Assembly (NCBI RefSeq): GCF_022402485.1
Contig: NZ_JAKRSA010000012.1
Coordinates: forward strand, 1 to 64,000
Length of the DNA: 64,000 nucleotides
Reading direction: 5' to 3'
Source: Phenylobacterium sp.
GTDB taxonomy: Bacteria; Pseudomonadota; Alphaproteobacteria; Caulobacterales; Caulobacteraceae
The notes beneath the pieces were generated by a model. It ran no database searches, had not been told where the DNA came from, and was given only the letters and a program-made list of their open reading frames with translations. The position numbers were made by a program, and so were the translations under genes. Positions 1,464 through 64,000 of the stretch are shown in pieces. Position 1 is the first letter of the stretch. Each line of letters opens with the position of its first letter.

Positions 1464-1591
1464 TATGTGTCCGCCCGGTGCGTGTCTAAAAGCCACTGCG
1501 AAGGAATCTTCGCCCCAGCTAAAGGCTTGAAAGCGCTTGAAAAAGCACGGTGCCGAAAGCGGATGCCCGCCCCCGACCCTAAGCCGCGCGC

Positions 1592-1620
1592 CTGATAGCA
1601 CGCGATTTTAGGCGCCGCAA
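1592..1620 (-). promoter_or_regulatory. Putative housekeeping promoter of the atp operon
   Basis: Read on the minus strand, TTGCGGC (1620-1614), a 14-base spacer and GCTATCAG (1599-1592) resemble the Caulobacter major sigma factor consensus TTGaCgS-N10-14-GCtANAWC. It lies about 130 bases upstream of the atpH GTG. It was found by eye and a start-site map would be needed to confirm it. Confidence 0.45.
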
Positions 1621-1652
1621 CCGAACCAGCGCATGGGAATCGGGCCATCGGC

Positions 1653-1982
1653 CTAAGGGTGGCCAGGAACCTCGACCCGACGAAAGACGGCCGAGCCCGT
1701 GGCGGCCAGGGCACCATTGGCCTTCAGCACCCGGCCATGGGCAAAGACAAGGGTTCGGGTGGCCCGTTCGACCGCCGCCTCCAGGGTCACGGTCTCCCCG
1801 GCTTGAAGGGGAAAACCGTAGTCCAGCGTGAGGGAGACCGGCGAGAGGGTCTCACCGCTGACCGCGGCCAGGGCGGCCTCCAGCAGGGCTGCAGCGGCAC
1901 CCGGCCCGGCAGGGACCTGGCCTGAGCTGACCGTGGGGGCGGAAGGGGAAGCTGTGAATGAGGAGGTCATGACAGCCGCCAT
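1653..1982 (-). CDS. Degenerate hotdog-fold (PaaI-like) protein
   Basis: The 109-residue product follows the layout of PaaI-type acyl-CoA thioesterases: a helix (AAALLEAALAAVSG), strands around VSLTLDYGFPLQAGETVTLEAAVERATRTLVFAHGRV, and a C-terminal ATGSAVFRR strand. The His-Gly-Gly region that normally precedes the central helix reads GPGAAA and the catalytic Asp/His positions are not evident, so activity is doubtful. The usual length is nearer 140 residues. An alternative start is the in-frame ATG at 1970. It is codirectional with and upstream of atpH, but separated from it by 189 bases containing a promoter-like sequence. Confidence 0.6.
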   Translation of the reverse strand: MAAVMTSSFTASPSAPTVSSGQVPAGPGAAAALLEAALAAVSGETLSPVSLTLDYGFPLQAGETVTLEAAVERATRTLVFAHGRVLKANGALAATGSAVFRRVEVPGHP

Positions 1983-2081
1983 TTACGGCGCTCTCCACAA
2001 AAGGAAAGGGCGCCGGAGGTCCGGCGCCCAGTTTGGCAGGCTCAACACTCAGCTGGGAGCTGGTTCATCAAAGGCCGCTGG

Positions 2082-2420
2082 TCAGGGCATGGGGGCCTTG
2101 GCTGACGCAGGCGCGGCCGCATTGCAGGCCTCAAGCCGGGCCGCATCAAAGGCCCGGGTGCCGGACTCAAAGGCCGTCAAGGGCCCGAAGCGGCCGGCGA
2201 TATCCTTGCACGTCGACGGAATAAAGGTGCGGCTGTTGGAAACGGTGGCGACGCAGGCCTCGCCCTCACACACAAACACCGCACCACCGGCCACCAATCG
2301 GGTCCGCTCGGCCACGGGCTGGCCAAGTTTGGCGGTAACCAGGGTCTGGGCGGCCGCCTGGCCGGCCAGGGTGAGGGTCAGAAGGGCCGCGGCGGCGGTC
2401 AGGGTCGAACGGATCATCAT
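2082..2420 (-). CDS. Small exported protein of unknown function (CC_3452-like)
   Basis: The 112-residue protein begins with a clear signal peptide (MMIRSTLTAAAALLTLTLAGQAAA, cleavage likely before QT) and has a compact domain with a CEGEACVATV segment and one further pair of cysteines (STCKDIAG and LEACNAA), suggesting periplasmic disulfides. The start at 2420 has GGAGA six bases upstream. From memory, small proteins of this type sit beside the atp genes in Caulobacter and are called the CC_3452 family; I cannot verify this here. No function is assigned. Confidence 0.7.
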   Translation of the reverse strand: MMIRSTLTAAAALLTLTLAGQAAAQTLVTAKLGQPVAERTRLVAGGAVFVCEGEACVATVSNSRTFIPSTCKDIAGRFGPLTAFESGTRAFDAARLEACNAAAPASAKAPMP

Positions 2421-2513
2421 GGCGTATCTCCGGCATTGGGGAGGGGGCGGCGCAGGATGAGCGCCGGCTGGTCCGAGCCCCTGCGCTATCCCCAGCGGCA
2501 GACCCTCGAACTA

Positions 2514-2533
2514 AGCGTTGCTAAGATAACGCT
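2514..2533. promoter_or_regulatory. Inverted repeat AGCGTT-N8-AACGCT in a divergent intergenic region
   Basis: The 298-base gap between the small exported protein (start 2420, minus) and the penicillin-binding protein (start 2719, plus) contains a perfect 6-base inverted repeat at 2514-2519 and 2528-2533. A second short palindrome, CCTGC-CAT-GCAGG, occupies 2567-2579. The local sequence is AT-richer than its surroundings. Either could be an operator serving the two divergent genes. No gene is seen in this gap. Confidence 0.3.
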
Positions 2534-2718
2534 GTTAAGATCGATCGCAACCACCATTTGTGCAGGCCTGCCATGCAGGTTTGGAGGGTTGGGGCGATTG
2601 GGCGATGAGGATGAGCCGCCCTTGAACCGTCCCGTTCATCCCCCATCAATCCTGTCGCGCCTCTTGTGGGCTTCGGATAAAGAAAACCGCGCCTGGGCGC
2701 ACCCCTGCAAAAGCACCA

Positions 2719-4719
2719 ATGGCTGGGATCAAGATGGCCAACCCACAAACGCCAAGATCGCAGCGGCCCGCCAGCGGGGGCCGGACCCGGCGGACCCCGG
2801 CCCAGGCCATCCTTTACTGGTCAGCCGTTTTGTCAGTCTGGGGCCTGATCTTCATTGCGGCCTTCTTCGCGGTTTTCGCCGTAGACCTGCCCGACACCTC
2901 CAAGCTGTTTGAGGTCGAGCGCCAGCCGTCTGTCGCCTATCTGGACCGGTCTGGTGCCCTGGTGGCCGTTCGGGGTTCGCAATATGCCCCGCCGGTGGAC
3001 CTGGACACCCTGCCCGACTACGTCCCCCAGGCCTTCATCGCCATCGAGGATCGCTGGTTCTATTGGCACCCCGGCTTCAACCCCTGGGGCATCGTCCGCT
3101 CGCAGATCTACAACATGACCAGCGATGGGGGCCCCTTGCGGGGAGGCTCGACCATCACCCAGCAGTTGGCCCGCAACCTCTTTCTGACGCCGGCCCAGAC
3201 CTATCGCCGCAAGGCCCAGGAGCTGATTCTCGCTGTGTGGCTGGAGCTCAAATTCTCCAAGAAGGAAATCCTCGAGCTCTATCTGAACCGGGTCTATTTC
3301 GGTGGAGGGGCCTATGGGATCGAGGCCGCTTCCCAGCGCTATTTCAATAAGCCAGCGCCGCAGCTGACCATCGGGGAATCGGCGTTGCTGGCCGGCATGA
3401 TGAAGGGCCCCTCACGCTACAGCCCCGTCTCAGCCACCGAACGCGCTGCCCGGCGCGCCACCATCGTTCTCGATGAGATGGTCCGGCACGGGGCGATCAC
3501 CGAGGCCGAGCGGGCTGAAGCCTTCAACAATCCTGTCCGGGTCAATCCGACCCTGGCCAACCAGCGGGCCCAGTATTTTGTCGACTGGCTCGATGTGGAG
3601 GTTCGGGCCCTGGTGGGCGAGCCGACCGACGACCTGGTGGTCGAGACCACCCTCGACCTGCCGATCCAGACGGCCGCCGAGCAAGCCGTTCGCCGCGGCG
3701 TCGCCGCAGGTGCCGACCAGGGAATCGGCCAGGGCGCCCTGGTGGCCCTGGATGGCGAAGGTCGGGTTCGGGCCTATGTGGGCGGGGCCGACTATGCCGA
3801 AAGCCAGTTTGACCGGGCCGCCATGGCCCAGCGCCAGGCCGGATCGGCCTTCAAGCCCTTTGTCTATCTGACCGCCATGGAGCAGGGCCGGACCCCCAAT
3901 GTCCGGATGGTCGACGAGCCCCTTCGCATCGGCGACTGGCAACCGCAAAACTACAACGGCGAGTTCCGCGGGGAAATGTCCCTGGAGCAGGCCCTGGCCC
4001 AGTCGACCAACACCATCGCCGCGCGCCTGGCTGGCGAGGTTGGCACTGGCAATGTGGCGACCACCGCCCGGCGGCTCGGGATCACGGGCAAGATCCAGCT
4101 GGACCCGTCCATGGCCCTGGGCGCCGTCGAGGTCACGCCCCTGCAGATGGCCCAGGCCTATGCGCCTTTCGCCAATGGCGGCTTCAAGGCGCAGGGCTAT
4201 GGCATCGAGCGCATCCGGACGGCCGACGGCCGGGTGCTCTATGATCACAATGTCGACAAGCCTCAGCGGCAGGCCGTGATCGGGTCTCCGGCGCTGCAGT
4301 ACATGAACCAGATGATGCGCGGGGTCGTCACCAACGGAACGGGCACAGCAGCCCAGGTCCCCAACTACGATCTGGCCGGAAAAACCGGCACCACCAACGA
4401 TTATCGGGACGCCTGGTTCGTGGGCTATACTGGCGGCTTTGTGGCGGCGGTCTGGGTGGGCAAGGACGACAACACCACCATGCGTCGGGTGTCCGGCGGC
4501 GGTGCCCCGGCTAGGATCTGGCGGGATTTCATGGGCGCAGCCCTGCCCCGGCTCAATGCCCAGCCGATCCCCGGCGGAGTTATTGAAGCCCCCCCGACAG
4601 CCCCGGCGGTCGATCCCATCGGCGACCTGCTGGATGGCGTTGGCGGTATGATCGACAGCAGCCCTGCGCCGGCCCAGCCTGCCCCAGTTCAAGGCGCGGG
4701 CGAGTCGATTCCCTACTGA
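2719..4719 (+). CDS. Class A penicillin-binding protein (PBP1A-like glycosyltransferase/transpeptidase)
   Basis: This bifunctional peptidoglycan synthase has 666 residues. A cytoplasmic basic tail and one transmembrane helix (about 28-52) are followed by a GT51 domain with catalytic Glu110 in EDRWFYWHPG and the GGSTITQQLARN motif. The transpeptidase domain has the nucleophile Ser376 in SAFK, Ser429-Thr-Asn431 and Lys555-Thr-Gly557. A proline-rich tail closes the protein. It would act in the inner membrane facing the periplasm. Start ATG 2719 is chosen for length; ATG 2734 is equally possible because neither has a strong Shine-Dalgarno. Its stop overlaps the convergent zinc peptidase gene by 7 bases. 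Which of the several Caulobacter paralogues it is cannot be decided here. Confidence 0.93.
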   Translation: MAGIKMANPQTPRSQRPASGGRTRRTPAQAILYWSAVLSVWGLIFIAAFFAVFAVDLPDTSKLFEVERQPSVAYLDRSGALVAVRGSQYAPPVDLDTLPDYVPQAFIAIEDRWFYWHPGFNPWGIVRSQIYNMTSDGGPLRGGSTITQQLARNLFLTPAQTYRRKAQELILAVWLELKFSKKEILELYLNRVYFGGGAYGIEAASQRYFNKPAPQLTIGESALLAGMMKGPSRYSPVSATERAARRATIVLDEMVRHGAITEAERAEAFNNPVRVNPTLANQRAQYFVDWLDVEVRALVGEPTDDLVVETTLDLPIQTAAEQAVRRGVAAGADQGIGQGALVALDGEGRVRAYVGGADYAESQFDRAAMAQRQAGSAFKPFVYLTAMEQGRTPNVRMVDEPLRIGDWQPQNYNGEFRGEMSLEQALAQSTNTIAARLAGEVGTGNVATTARRLGITGKIQLDPSMALGAVEVTPLQMAQAYAPFANGGFKAQGYGIERIRTADGRVLYDHNVDKPQRQAVIGSPALQYMNQMMRGVVTNGTGTAAQVPNYDLAGKTGTTNDYRDAWFVGYTGGFVAAVWVGKDDNTTMRRVSGGGAPARIWRDFMGAALPRLNAQPIPGGVIEAPPTAPAVDPIGDLLDGVGGMIDSSPAPAQPAPVQGAGESIPY

Positions 4720-5465
4720 GCCGAGACGCCGGCACCGACGGCATGCAGCCGCGCCCCATGGGCTCTCAGCCAGGCACGATGCGGGGCGGGGTCGCCGATC
4801 AGGGCCTCCACCAGCGCCCAGAAGCGCGGCCCGTGGTTGAGCTCCAGCAGGTGGGCGCACTCGTGGGCCGCCACATAGTCGGCCACCGGCAGGGGGGCCA
4901 GGGCCAGCCGCCACGAATAGCGGATCACGGCGGGCCCGCCGCCGACAGACGGCTTGCACGACCCCCACCGGGACCGGGCGTCAGTGAGCGCCACCTTGGG
5001 CATCGGTGCCCCCAGGGCCCCGGCGTGGATCCGTGTGAGGTCGCTCAGCCCTTCCAGCGCGCGACGACGCAGGAGCCTTTGGACGGCGCGGGAGAAGCCT
5101 TCCCCCTCGCCTTGCGCGGTGATCTCGTCAGGGGCCTCGCCCGTGGCCGTCAGCCAACGGGCGCGGCCCGGCGCATAAGCCAGCCGCACGGTTTGCCCCA
5201 TGACCGTTAGCTCAGCACCGGGGATCAGAGGCTGGGGGGCGGGAAGCTCAGCCAGACGCGCACTGATCCAGTCGATCCGGTCCCGGGCGAAGGCGGCCGC
5301 CTCGGCAAGGCGGCGCAGGGATGGGGCGGTGGCCACAACCTCGCGGCGGCTGCGGTCCAGGCGCAAGGAGACCCGTCGCGCCCGGGCGTGAACGCTCAGG
5401 CGGATGACCGCGCCAGCGATCTCGATCCGGTCGCCATCGGAAAAGGTGCGGCCAAAGGGACTCAT
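4713..5465 (-). CDS. YgjP/SprT-like zinc metallopeptidase (M48-type, DUF45)
   Basis: The 250-residue protein carries HECAHLLELNHGPRFW near its C-terminus, the HExxH zinc motif with the downstream NHGxxFW that characterises the YgjP/DUF45 family. The upstream core SRWGSCKPSVGGGPAVIRYSWRL is also typical. There is no signal peptide, so it is probably cytoplasmic. The start ATG 5465 is chosen because the frame further upstream overlaps phaZ and is not conserved-looking. It follows phaZ after 10 bases and is likely cotranscribed with it. The biological substrate is unknown. Confidence 0.87.
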   Translation of the reverse strand: MSPFGRTFSDGDRIEIAGAVIRLSVHARARRVSLRLDRSRREVVATAPSLRRLAEAAAFARDRIDWISARLAELPAPQPLIPGAELTVMGQTVRLAYAPGRARWLTATGEAPDEITAQGEGEGFSRAVQRLLRRRALEGLSDLTRIHAGALGAPMPKVALTDARSRWGSCKPSVGGGPAVIRYSWRLALAPLPVADYVAAHECAHLLELNHGPRFWALVEALIGDPAPHRAWLRAHGARLHAVGAGVSAQ

Positions 5466-54866: not shown

Positions 54867-54942
54867 GGGGCTATAGCTCAGCTGGTAGAGCGCTTGAATG
54901 GCATTCAAGAGGTCAGCGGTTCGACTCCGCTTAGCTCCACCA
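54867..54942 (+). tRNA. tRNA-Ala (anticodon GGC)
   Basis: A 76-base cloverleaf: acceptor GGGGCTA pairs with TAGCTCC, the D-arm is AGCTCAGCTGGTAGAGC, the anticodon stem CTTGA/TCAAG frames loop ATGGCAT with anticodon GGC, and the T-arm contains GGTTCGACTCC. The discriminator A and CCA (54940-54942) are encoded. It reads GCC alanine codons, abundant in this genome. Confidence 0.97.
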
Positions 54943-54980: not shown

Positions 54981-55175
54981 GTGGATGATGCACTCTGTCA
55001 ATGCTGAGGCACAGCGGCGCTGCGGTTGCAATCGTGGCTCAGGCCGGGCATAGCCGACCCCATCGACGGACCCGGCTTGCCGGGTGGCTCGGCCGGGCGC
55101 CTATCCCCCGGACAACGCACGGCCCCCTGAGGCGCTCGCTGCCCTGGGCCCGATGAATGACTGAAACCCGAACAT

Positions 55176-60361: not shown

Positions 60362-60456
60362 CCCGACGGGGTATGGCCGCGTCGGTGATGCCCTGCAATG
60401 CGCATCCGGGCAGAGGGGCGCTTTACAGGGGGGGCCGGAAGCCCTATCGGGGCGTC

Positions 60457-60546
60457 ATGCTGCATTTCGCCGCCATGACCATGATTATTAAAACCACTGC
60501 GCCTGGGGGCGCAGGGGTCTGGTCCTGGCTGCCCGCAGCCGACTGA
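60457..60546 (+). CDS. Putative asd leader peptide
   Basis: A short frame upstream of asd. From ATG 60475 it gives 23 residues, starting MTMIIKTT; an in-frame ATG at 60457 adds six residues (MLHFAA). Codons 1-8 from 60475 all specify amino acids made through Asd: Met, Thr, Met, Ile, Ile, Lys, Thr, Thr. It ends at TGA 60544-60546. No strong Shine-Dalgarno is seen (GGGG at 60449-60452 precedes ATG 60457). It could be a regulatory leader whose translation speed reports the supply of aspartate-family amino acids; this is inference from composition and position. Confidence 0.5.
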   Translation: MLHFAAMTMIIKTTAPGGAGVWSWLPAAD

Positions 60547-60624
60547 CGATCCCTGCTTGACCCCGCCGGAAGGATGGGGTCGGCCAAGGAAAAGCCAGCC
60601 TCCCTCCGGCCAGACCCCCGGAGG
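60511..60624 (+). promoter_or_regulatory. Candidate four-segment attenuator in the asd leader
   Basis: Four complementary segments: A GGGGTC 60514-60519, B GACCCC 60559-60564, C GGGGTCGGCC 60576-60585, D GGCC-A-GACCCC 60608-60618. A pairs with B, B with C, and C with D (10 base pairs with one bulged A). D directly adjoins the asd Shine-Dalgarno GGAGG (60620-60624). A:B plus C:D and the exclusive B:C pairing are thus alternative folds, as in amino-acid attenuators. There is no T-run after C:D, so control would be of translation. Confidence 0.5.
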
Positions 60625-60629
60625 CTCCC

Positions 60630-61721
60630 ATGCCACAGTCCCTGTCCAGCCCCCTGGCGCAATCCCGGTCGCCTTCCCCGGCGACGCCGACCATGACGCG
60701 GCCCTTGACCATTGCCATTGTCGGGGCCACAGGTGCCGTGGGGGCCGAGCTGATCGCCTGTCTGGAGCGGCGGGCCTTTCCGGTGGGCGAGCTGCGCCTG
60801 TTTGCCTCCCCGCGCTCGGCGGGCAAGACCCTGACGTTCCGTGGCGCGCCAGTCATGATCCAGGCCCTGGAGGAGACGAGCTTCGCCGGCGTCGACGTCG
60901 CCTTCTTCTCCGCCGGCGCCAGCCTGTCCCGGCACTACGGCCCCCTGGCCGTGGCCGCGGGGGCCTGGGTGGTGGACAATTCCTCCGCCTTCCGCATGGA
61001 CGCCGACACCCCGCTTGTGGTGCCCGAGGTCAATGGCTGGCGGCTGGGCGAGACGCCGGGCCGGCTGGTGGCCAACCCCAACTGCGTGGCCGCCATCGCC
61101 GCTGTGGTGCTGGCTCCGCTGCACGCCCGCCGGCTGATTGTCCGGCTGGTGGGCTCGACCTATCAGGCGGCCTCTGGCGCGGGAGCTGCCGCCATGGCCG
61201 AACTGCGGGACGCCACCGCTGCGGCCCTGGCCGGGGAGACCTATGCCCCCCAGGTCATGGCCCACCCCTACGCCTTCAATCTGTTCAGCCATGACGCCGG
61301 CATCGATCCGGAGACCGGCTATAACGGCGAGGAACTGAAGGTCATGGCCGAGCTTCGCCGGCTGCTGGGGGCGGCCGACCTGCCGGCCAGCTTCACCTGC
61401 ATCCGGGTGCCGGTGCTACGGGCCCACGCCATGGCCCTGACCGTCCGGTTCGCTGAGCCGGTGAGCGTCGACGACGCCAGGGCGTGGCTGGCCGAGGCAC
61501 CGGGTGTGCGTCTGGTGGATGACCGCGAGGCCAATCACTTTCCCATGCCCGGCGAGGCCTCAGGCCGTGACGATGTGTTGGTGGGCCGGATCCGCACCGA
61601 CCTGTCGGACCCCTCGGGGCGCAGCCTGTCCCTGTTCATCGCCGGCGATCAGCTGCTCAAGGGTGCCGCGCTCAATGCGGTGCAGATTGCTGAGTCGCTG
61701 GTGGAGGCGGGCCAGGTCTAG
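60630..61721 (+). CDS. asd: Aspartate-semialdehyde dehydrogenase
   Basis: The 363-residue enzyme reduces aspartyl phosphate to aspartate semialdehyde, the branch point to Lys, Met, Thr and Ile and to diaminopimelate. It has the NADP-binding IAIVGATGAVGAELI, NSSAFRMDADTPLVVPEVN and the catalytic Cys in LVANPNCVAAIAA. ATG 60630 has GGAGG five bases upstream; this adds 21 Ser/Pro-rich residues before the usual start, and ATG 60693 is the conserved-length alternative but has no ribosome site. It shares CTAG stop bases with the convergent rpoN. A leader-peptide-like frame lies just upstream. Confidence 0.95.
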   Translation: MPQSLSSPLAQSRSPSPATPTMTRPLTIAIVGATGAVGAELIACLERRAFPVGELRLFASPRSAGKTLTFRGAPVMIQALEETSFAGVDVAFFSAGASLSRHYGPLAVAAGAWVVDNSSAFRMDADTPLVVPEVNGWRLGETPGRLVANPNCVAAIAAVVLAPLHARRLIVRLVGSTYQAASGAGAAAMAELRDATAAALAGETYAPQVMAHPYAFNLFSHDAGIDPETGYNGEELKVMAELRRLLGAADLPASFTCIRVPVLRAHAMALTVRFAEPVSVDDARAWLAEAPGVRLVDDREANHFPMPGEASGRDDVLVGRIRTDLSDPSGRSLSLFIAGDQLLKGAALNAVQIAESLVEAGQV

Positions 61722-63379: not shown

Positions 63380-64000
63380 ATGTCCGAGACCACGCCCCTG
63401 CGCCCGGAAACCCTGGTGATCCATGCCGGCGCAACGCCCGATCCGGTGACCAAGGCCCGCGTCACCCCGATCTATCAGACCACCTCCTACGTCTTCGACG
63501 ATGCTGACCATGCTGCGGCCCTGTTCAATTTGGACGCCCCCGGCAACATCTACTCCCGCCTGGGCAATCCGACCTCGAGGGTTCTGGAGGCCCGGCTCGC
63601 CACCCTGGAAGGCGGGGTCGGTGCCCTGGCCGTGGCCAGTGGACATGCGGCCCAGCTGCTGGTGTTTCACACCCTGATGGAGCCCGGCTGCAACATCGTG
63701 GCCTCCCGCAAGCTCTATGGCGGCTCCATCACCCAGCTGAGCCAGAGCTTCAAACGCATGGGCTGGGGGGTGACCTTCGTCGAGGACCTCGAGCCCGAGG
63801 CCTTTGCGGCCGCGATCAATGATCAGACCCGGGCGGTGTTCATCGAATCCATCGCCAATCCCGGCGGCGTGGTCATGGACATTGCCGGCATCGCCGCCGC
63901 CGCCCATGCCCGGGGCGTGCCGCTGGTGGTGGATAACACCCTGGCCACCCCCTATCTCTGCCGTCCGCTGGATCATGGAGCCGACATCGTCGTCCACTCC
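63380..64000 (+). CDS. metY: O-acetylhomoserine aminocarboxypropyltransferase (partial, 3' end outside window)
   Basis: The first 207 residues are present of an enzyme that usually has about 430. It is a PLP-dependent Cys/Met-metabolism enzyme: PETLVIHAGATPDPVTKARVTPIYQTTSYVFDDADHAAALFNLDAPGNIYSRLGNPTSRVLEARLATLEGG is typical of MetY. The PLP-binding Asp appears in VPLVVDNTLATPYLCRP; the Schiff-base Lys is beyond the window. It makes homocysteine from O-acetylhomoserine and sulfide. GAGGGAA precedes ATG 63380. The 168-base gap to rpoN shows no SAM-II-like riboswitch by eye. Confidence 0.93.
   Translation, partial: MSETTPLRPETLVIHAGATPDPVTKARVTPIYQTTSYVFDDADHAAALFNLDAPGNIYSRLGNPTSRVLEARLATLEGGVGALAVASGHAAQLLVFHTLMEPGCNIVASRKLYGGSITQLSQSFKRMGWGVTFVEDLEPEAFAAAINDQTRAVFIESIANPGGVVMDIAGIAAAAHARGVPLVVDNTLATPYLCRPLDHGADIVVHS

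Follow-up and report, generated by a model that had tools for sequence, protein, structure and literature searches.

Sequence evidence for a conserved, probable leader-peptide attenuator family upstream of asd in Alphaproteobacteria

A short reading frame upstream of a second asd gene

Aspartate-semialdehyde dehydrogenase, the product of asd, acts at the branch from which lysine, threonine, methionine and isoleucine, as well as the diaminopimelate of the cell wall, are supplied. In Phenylobacterium sp., a second asd gene is preceded by a short reading frame rich in codons for lysine, threonine, methionine and isoleucine, which raises the question of whether a ribosome translating this frame senses the supply of these amino acids and sets the expression of the gene downstream. 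Our analysis covered a 64,000-nt stretch of the genome (the window) together with related loci. The gene in question (60630-61721, + strand) encodes a protein that matches the NCBIfam profile TIGR01296 with 355.9 bits against a cut-off of 324.2, and its identity as asd is solid; the canonical asd of the same genome (G000:C3:169389-170387) is ~40% identical to it, and we refer to the second gene as asd2. The canonical gene (locus L216) has no Met/Thr/Ile/Lys leader ORF in its upstream DNA, and the best ATG-initiated ORF within 350 nt 5' of the called starts of hom and the aspartokinase gene of the same genome contains two such residues, a check that for aspartokinase is affected by the called start (a TTG), which may sit too far upstream. 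The exact 14-base pattern of the leader core, which would miss diverged copies, occurs once genome-wide, and a plasmid collection gave no DNA match and just eight distant asd matches. After the gene that neighbours asd2 lies another gene on the same strand (63380-64000, +) that, from a look at its sequence, we take to encode an O-succinylhomoserine sulfhydrylase or cystathionine-type enzyme. At the Rfam gathering cut-off its surroundings gave no riboswitch, whether SAM-II or another. Elsewhere in the window, a match to the Rfam sul1 RNA (RF03058; gathering score 36.2) at 55065-55117 (+ strand), ~125 nt after a tRNA gene (54867-54939), scores 62.9 bits.

The leader ORF (MLHFAAMTMIIKTTAPGGAGVWSWLPAAD, beginning MLHFAAMTMIIKTTAPGG...) occupies 60457-60546 (+ strand) and encodes 29 amino acids. 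Its control codons, ATG ACC ATG ATT ATT AAA ACC ACT (60475-60498, + strand), specify M-T-M-I-I-K-T-T. A preliminary description of this DNA had read these eight residues correctly but had placed the start at their first codon, giving a frame that reads MTMIIKTTAPGGAGVWSWLPAAD and ends at the stop codon at 60544-60546; ATG 60475 is instead an internal Met, and the conserved in-frame start, with an equivalent kept in relatives, is ATG 60457. Met, Thr, Ile and Lys account for 13.3% of the 2122 codons in eight coding sequences of the window, and at that frequency a run of seven of them at a particular ATG would arise with a chance of ~7 × 10^-7. Upstream of the ORF lie a -35 element, TTTACA (60422-60427, + strand), a motif that recurs before the leaders of relatives, and a -10 element, TATCGG (60445-60450, + strand), recognised by its position and by the spacing in relatives; ATG 60457 is 30 nt past the last base of the former and 7 nt past the last base of the latter. 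Of 117 leaders, 110 have TTTAC or TTGAC within 45 nt 5' of their ATG, and 106 of the 117 have it at 30-34 nt. With such spacing, transcription would begin on the leader ATG or right beside it, and we infer that the mRNA is leaderless.

An ATG-initiated ORF with at least six Met, Thr, Ile or Lys (M/T/I/K) residues at positions 2-16 is present in 120 of 155 upstream regions, compared with 21 of 3100 mononucleotide shuffles. The 155 loci comprise asd2 and some canonical asd genes, taken from genomes sampled at the level of genus, family, order and class, and from named records; three of them (L030, L128 and L163) are misplaced, with contig ends close to the gene, and entered none of the helix tests, L030 being a false positive among the 120. 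The leader set used for further counts derives from 133 ORF candidates with at least five M/T/I/K residues, after five manual exclusions; removal of ten without a usable Shine-Dalgarno (SD) start (L016, L032, L033, L055, L062, L070, L071, L089, L108 and L140) left 123, and removal of six non-leaders (L047, L056, L065, L076, L085 and L109) left 117, among which near-duplicates remain. Within the genus, all 49 asd2 matches at E<=1e-120 (101 genomes searched) carry the leader, 48 with at least six M/T/I/K residues and one with five, and the -35 motif accompanies 48 of the 49; conservation in close relatives had been put forward earlier as a check on the idea of a leader, and it is seen at every one of these matches. 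Apart from the window's own, a class-wide sample of 385 genomes yielded 27 asd2 matches at E<=1e-95; with L163 set aside for its contig end, the leader is present in 18 of 26 assessable matches and absent in eight. Several of these eight loci, which include L155 and L157, have a -35-like TTGAC no more than ~100 nt from the gene, which suggests loss or absence of the attenuator. Among the best 80 matches listed from named records, those with the leader include Bradyrhizobium, Acidisphaera, Marivivens and a metagenome entry under the label Rhizobium; loci L047-L110, mostly from other phyla, have just scattered ORFs with 5-7 M/T/I/K residues. At the level of sequence, these comparisons confirm that the leader upstream of asd is real, and together with the interchange of Met, Thr, Ile and Lys described below they uphold its earlier characterisation as a peptide of aspartate-family residues.

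Predicted alternating helices from the leader to the Shine-Dalgarno sequence

The RNA downstream of the control codons contains a series of complementary segments, all on the + strand. Segment 1 (TGCGCC, 60498-60503) can pair with the 5' part of segment A (GGCGCAGGGGTC, 60508-60519), with a probability of 0.45 in free RNA. Segment A can pair with segment B (GACCCCGCC, 60559-60567), both being supported by sequence, folding and the permutation test described below, and in the window's clade its bases 60511-60519 can form 9 bp with a further segment, B' (GATCCCTGC, 60548-60556). Segment C (GGATGGGGTCGGCC, 60572-60585) pairs either with B, in a helix that corresponds to the terminator hairpin of Bradyrhizobium, or with segment D (GGCCAGACCCC, 60608-60618). 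Sequence and folding further indicate a helix, D:E, between an anti-SD strand (CCTCCGG, 60603-60609) and segment E (CCGGAGG, 60618-60624), which includes the asd SD sequence GGAGG (60620-60624) and is thereby masked. C:D and D:E exclude each other, and C:D leaves the SD unpaired; the chain of helices A:B, B:C, C:D and D:E is mutually exclusive from one step to the next and ends on the asd SD. The preliminary description had named GGGGTC (60514-60519), GACCCC (60559-60564), GGGGTCGGCC (60576-60585), GGCCAGACCCC (60608-60618) and GGAGG (60620-60624), and all five are in place. Its statement that D touches GGAGG does not hold, since a single base separates the end of D (60618) from it, and the description overlooked D:E, the helix that does cover the SD; the translational attenuator that it had proposed before asd is nonetheless retained, in the form of this SD-hiding helix and the alternation of helices upstream.

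A plain thr-type transcription attenuator was rejected for the window because B:C is followed by GGGGTCGGCCAAGG, with no U-run. A riboswitch or other known RNA family was rejected for lack of an Rfam match: covariance models including Thr_leader and the lysine riboswitch found nothing in the region at the gathering cut-off, the matches below it were just two to miRNAs, far under threshold, and a search of six relatives at E<=1 gave no match.

The two strands of D:E vary in concert between loci, with CUCCGG/CCGGAG, CUCUGG/CUGGAG, GCGUUUCC/GGAGACGU and CGUUUC/GAAACG as alternative pairs. Covariation was assessed on a set of 87 loci of the order, two of which (L014 and L015) come from another of its families; the set omits the terminator-type loci L124, L126 and L127, as well as L031 and L043, which share contigs with L114 and L125, and without three loci that lack a recognised Lys motif it becomes a set of 84. 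In segment-swap cycles over 84-87 loci, a test that counts related loci many times, favourable and unfavourable cycles numbered 2803 and 552 for A:B, 2566 and 476 for B:C, 3161 and 374 for C:D, and 2653 and 564 for D:E. Control pairings were nearly balanced, with 1690 and 1626 (A:C), 1822 and 1587 (A:D) and 1787 and 1526 (C:E), and B:E was strongly unfavourable (653 and 2787). In a set of 12 loci dissimilar to one another (11 in the case of A:B), the number of permutations, out of 5000, that equalled the loci's own pairings was 0 for A:B, 0 for B:C, 0 for C:D and 2 for D:E, compared with 1584-5000 for control pairings; these loci were picked by greedy thinning, single linkage having given three clusters, which were uninformative. 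Smaller locus sets weaken the support: with seven loci of the order the four helices were matched by 1, 2, 0 and 103 of 5000 permutations (controls down to 483), and with six other loci by 114, 114, 779 and 363 (controls 2066-3978). Taken singly, C:D outperformed 95 or more of 100 shuffled versions of D (the best 5%) at 58 of the 87 loci, and D:E did so at just 44.

Inside aligned groups, paired cells make up 90.7% and 96.6% for D:E and 99.1% for C:D, and the variation is mainly from G-C to G-U. Strict two-sided compensation is rare there, amounting to two cells in D:E and one in C:D among 43 sequences, and to none among 30. The compensatory changes that had been suggested as a check are accordingly found between divergent loci, by the permutation test, and seldom within aligned groups. 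Between divergent loci, covariation appears to have kept the mutually exclusive helices past the control codons. In L034, a record labelled Rhizobium sp. that has a leader and in which C:D and D:E may pair, C holds GAGACGGGG and the SD region E holds GAGACG, such that, as a pairing partner of D, E looks like C.

Modelled ribosome position, helix choice and the amino acids probably read

We consider it likely that a ribosome-sensing attenuator controls translation of the second asd gene. When threonine, lysine, isoleucine or methionine is scarce, a ribosome would stall on the control codons and leave A free; free A would take B, the released C would take D, and the SD would be open and asd translated. 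With ample supply, the ribosome would run on, B:C and D:E would form, and the SD would be closed. The ON state would thus consist of A:B and C:D, and the OFF state of B:C, which in the window's family permits D:E. As in the preliminary description, we infer that the net effect of shortage is to turn asd on.

Equilibrium folding, which takes no account of co-transcriptional order, is consistent with such a response among the relatives. In a scan of stall positions over 84 loci, SD opening peaked with the A site at Lys, Thr and Thr of the conserved motif (medians 10^0.87, 10^1.38 and 10^1.36); it was 10^0.65 one codon before Lys, and 10^-0.51 to 10^0.29 at other positions. Stalling in silico led to loss of B:C in 56 of the 84 loci and gain of C:D in 45. 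The 52 loci of the KTTR-and-other group had median probabilities of 0.99 for B:C, 0.00 for C:D and 0.96 for D:E with a ribosome at the stop codon, and of 0.00, 0.80 and 0.45, respectively, with a stall at the first Thr. When the footprint edge is shifted 3 nt either way, the peak moves by one codon (74 loci outside the window's clade). On this modelling of the relatives, the stall that triggers the ON state would lie at or within one codon of the conserved Lys-Thr-Thr.

We aligned 112 leaders on the Lys of their K-T-T motif. At offsets -5 and -4, which were not used for anchoring, 85% and 91% of residues are M/T/I/K, with 58-76% at offsets -3 to -1; at -5 and -4 the four amino acids replace each other, and codon 11 varies between Ile, Thr and Met within the window's clade. 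It is possible, although we do not favour it, that the element reads chiefly threonine and lysine, and that the Ile and Met codons of Caulobacteraceae are secondary, or are just filler that is A/U-rich and open. The codons at which stalling is effective in the order set are Lys-Thr-Thr, and of six Bradyrhizobium leaders, five combine Thr and Lys codons with no Ile or Met past the start, the sixth having a single Ile. Codon choice, which we also count in favour of the attenuator, fits filler of this kind as well, AAA being preferred to AAG by 164:45 and ATT to ATC by 130:39 in leaders, opposite to the bias of the window's coding sequences (AAA 18%, ATT 23%). In addition, the Sinorhizobium meliloti ORF SEP5 is described, in the accessible part of its source, with Thr and Lys codons (PMC10117765). 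What speaks against reading Thr and Lys alone is that Ile and Met come back at the variable control positions, codon 11 of the window's clade among them. Given the Bradyrhizobium leaders, Thr and Lys seem to be the shared core of the sensed codons and Ile and Met a frequent extra, and we retain the proposal that shortage of any of the four would stall the leader ribosome.

The window and its own clade fold without a switch. In the window, B:C has a probability of 0.96-1.00 and C:D of 0.00 in every modelled ribosome state, and none of the ten clade loci gains C:D or loses B:C on stalling at Lys or at either Thr; B:C is not lost because A prefers B', leaving B free. SD opening in the clade is flat and high before Lys (median 10^1.6 to 10^1.9) and drops from Lys on, such that the control codons are not singled out, and in the window its rise over free RNA is just 10^0.27. 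The fold with B:C and D:E has an energy of -80.3, compared with -75.1 for the fold with C:D, a gap of ~5 kcal/mol. Such pair probabilities, in the window (L001) as in its clade, are what would be expected if the switch were broken or hard-wired here, with A:B' and B:C coexisting and the SD shut regardless of the leader ribosome. We think this unlikely, because the element outconserves the gene: between the window and nine clade members, the leader core is 93% and the spacer 92% identical, compared with 83% for the asd coding sequence from nt 76 and 47% for DNA further upstream, and the class of the control codons is conserved too. Moreover, SD opening in the window is 1.7 × 10^-3 with the A site at I10 and 4.8 × 10^-6 with a ribosome at the stop codon, although it is 9.4 × 10^-4 in free RNA. 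By homology and strong conservation, the attenuator mechanism probably holds in the window's clade, possibly as a kinetic effect, with the loss of B:C upon stalling presumed to occur as in its homologues.

In assigning B:C to the OFF state we depart from the preliminary description, which had the same leader with B:C as ON and C:D as OFF, on the grounds that C:D touches the SD. Segments A to D are indeed present as it stated, and GACCCC lies between SD and ATG in some IKTT loci (e.g. L005). In Bradyrhizobium and other relatives, however, the B:C hairpin is followed by a U-run and forms an intrinsic terminator, which makes B:C the OFF state in these relatives; a U-run follows B:C in 17 of 117 leaders, and in 5 of 88 of the window's family (f1), by a mechanical count that is slightly low, the automated hairpin search having passed over the L037 terminator. 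The same sensor would end there in a terminator that replaces or adds to the SD hairpin. In the window, the SD is paired by D:E, not by C:D. Finally, when B is removed in folding and C is freed for D, the SD becomes more open in 79 of 87 order loci, by >5-fold in 59 (and >5-fold less open in four). The gain has a median of 10^1.9, whereas folds with a shuffled D reach 10^0.28; opening also rises in 69% of the shuffled-D cases, and the observed gain tops all eight of a locus's own shuffles in 42 of the 87 loci. Taken together, the terminators of relatives, the folds without B and the D:E helix led us to reject B:C as the ON state, and we regard that assignment as improbable. In three of the Bradyrhizobium loci (L037, L038 and L040), a ~45-nt, partly palindromic stretch (GCATGATCCGGAAAAG...GATCATGC) separates the leader terminator from asd; it is absent from L036, L039 and L042, and looks like an inserted repeat element.

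That the ORF encodes a small functional peptide, with the RNA structure incidental, is very improbable: a comparable S. meliloti ORF does yield a detectable tagged protein, according to the accessible part of PMC10117765, but conservation lies mainly in the control region and in the Gly codons that form A, the ends and length vary, and the four downstream helices co-vary.

Scope of the family and comparison with known attenuators

The sequence comparisons argue that a conserved family of asd leader-peptide attenuators in Alphaproteobacteria is real, known in kind and, by the searches made, new as a family. We lean, with some reserve, towards a broader reading: across the class, one leaderless ORF would sense charging for all four aspartate-derived amino acids and pass the signal through a modular relay (1:A, B:C and D:E versus A:B and C:D) to a terminator or, via an extra domino step, to the asd SD, with the output swapped in evolution and the sensor kept. 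Leader stalling for any of several end products would place control of a branched pathway directly at its base. The swapping of four amino acids at the control codons lends itself to a test of which tRNAs are read, and terminator and SD versions of one sensor would show how attenuators may swap their output in evolution.

The thr operon attenuator of Escherichia coli (Thr_leader) combines a leader peptide of Thr and Ile codons with alternating helices upstream of an aspartate-pathway gene, and a thrA attenuator of Pasteurellales, reportedly described by Vitreschak in 2004, is said to have Thr, Ile and Met codons. The asd leader shares with these thr-type attenuators the leader peptide with Thr and Ile (and Met) codons, the alternating helices and the aspartate-pathway gene; it differs in its gene, asd, in its Lys codons, in having no U-run in the window and an SD as its predicted output, in its apparently leaderless leader, and in having no Rfam match. 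In translational attenuators of the ermC type, a stalled leader ribosome alters a helix that hides a downstream SD. The asd leader would follow the same logic of an SD-hiding helix, with amino-acid supply rather than an antibiotic as its signal and with the C:D/D:E alternation as an extra step.

Within Alphaproteobacteria, the Sinorhizobium trpL attenuator (rnTrpL/peTrpL), presented in the accessible part of PMC10117765 as an attenuator sRNA that encodes a functional leader peptide, resembles the asd leader in its leaderless leader ORF and in amino-acid attenuation, but concerns tryptophan and trpE. The actinobacterial LEU element and translational ileS T-boxes also belong to amino-acid genes for which control through SD pairing has been proposed (PMC1262725, in its accessible part); as described there, they are unrelated to the asd leader in structure, gene and phylum.

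The asd leader goes unmentioned in the accessible parts of a Caulobacter ribosome profiling study (PMC4117421), PMC1273637 and PMC2965389, and the terms related to it that were sought do not occur in PMC4833913. Among the matches listed in our literature search, we judged none but PMC10117765 a direct precedent; it took in few subscription papers, in which an earlier description is possible. The closest prior observation is S. meliloti SEP5, an ORF in the 5'-UTR of an 'aspartate dehydrogenase' gene that contains six Thr and three Lys codons; Ribo-seq and Western blot showed SEP5 to be translated, and it was suggested that it might be a leader peptide (PMC10117765, in its accessible part). In view of SEP5, the earlier statement that no leader of this kind has been described for asd was too strong. 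The 'aspartate dehydrogenase' is probably aspartate-semialdehyde dehydrogenase, and by description SEP5 and the asd leader are then both short Thr/Lys-rich ORFs 5' of what is likely the same gene. The accessible part of PMC10117765 gives SEP5 as conserved in Sinorhizobium only and describes no RNA structure or mechanism for it, whereas the asd leader recurs in many alphaproteobacterial families with a defined, predicted helix relay; an isolated observation in S. meliloti would thereby become one of a family with testable structure.
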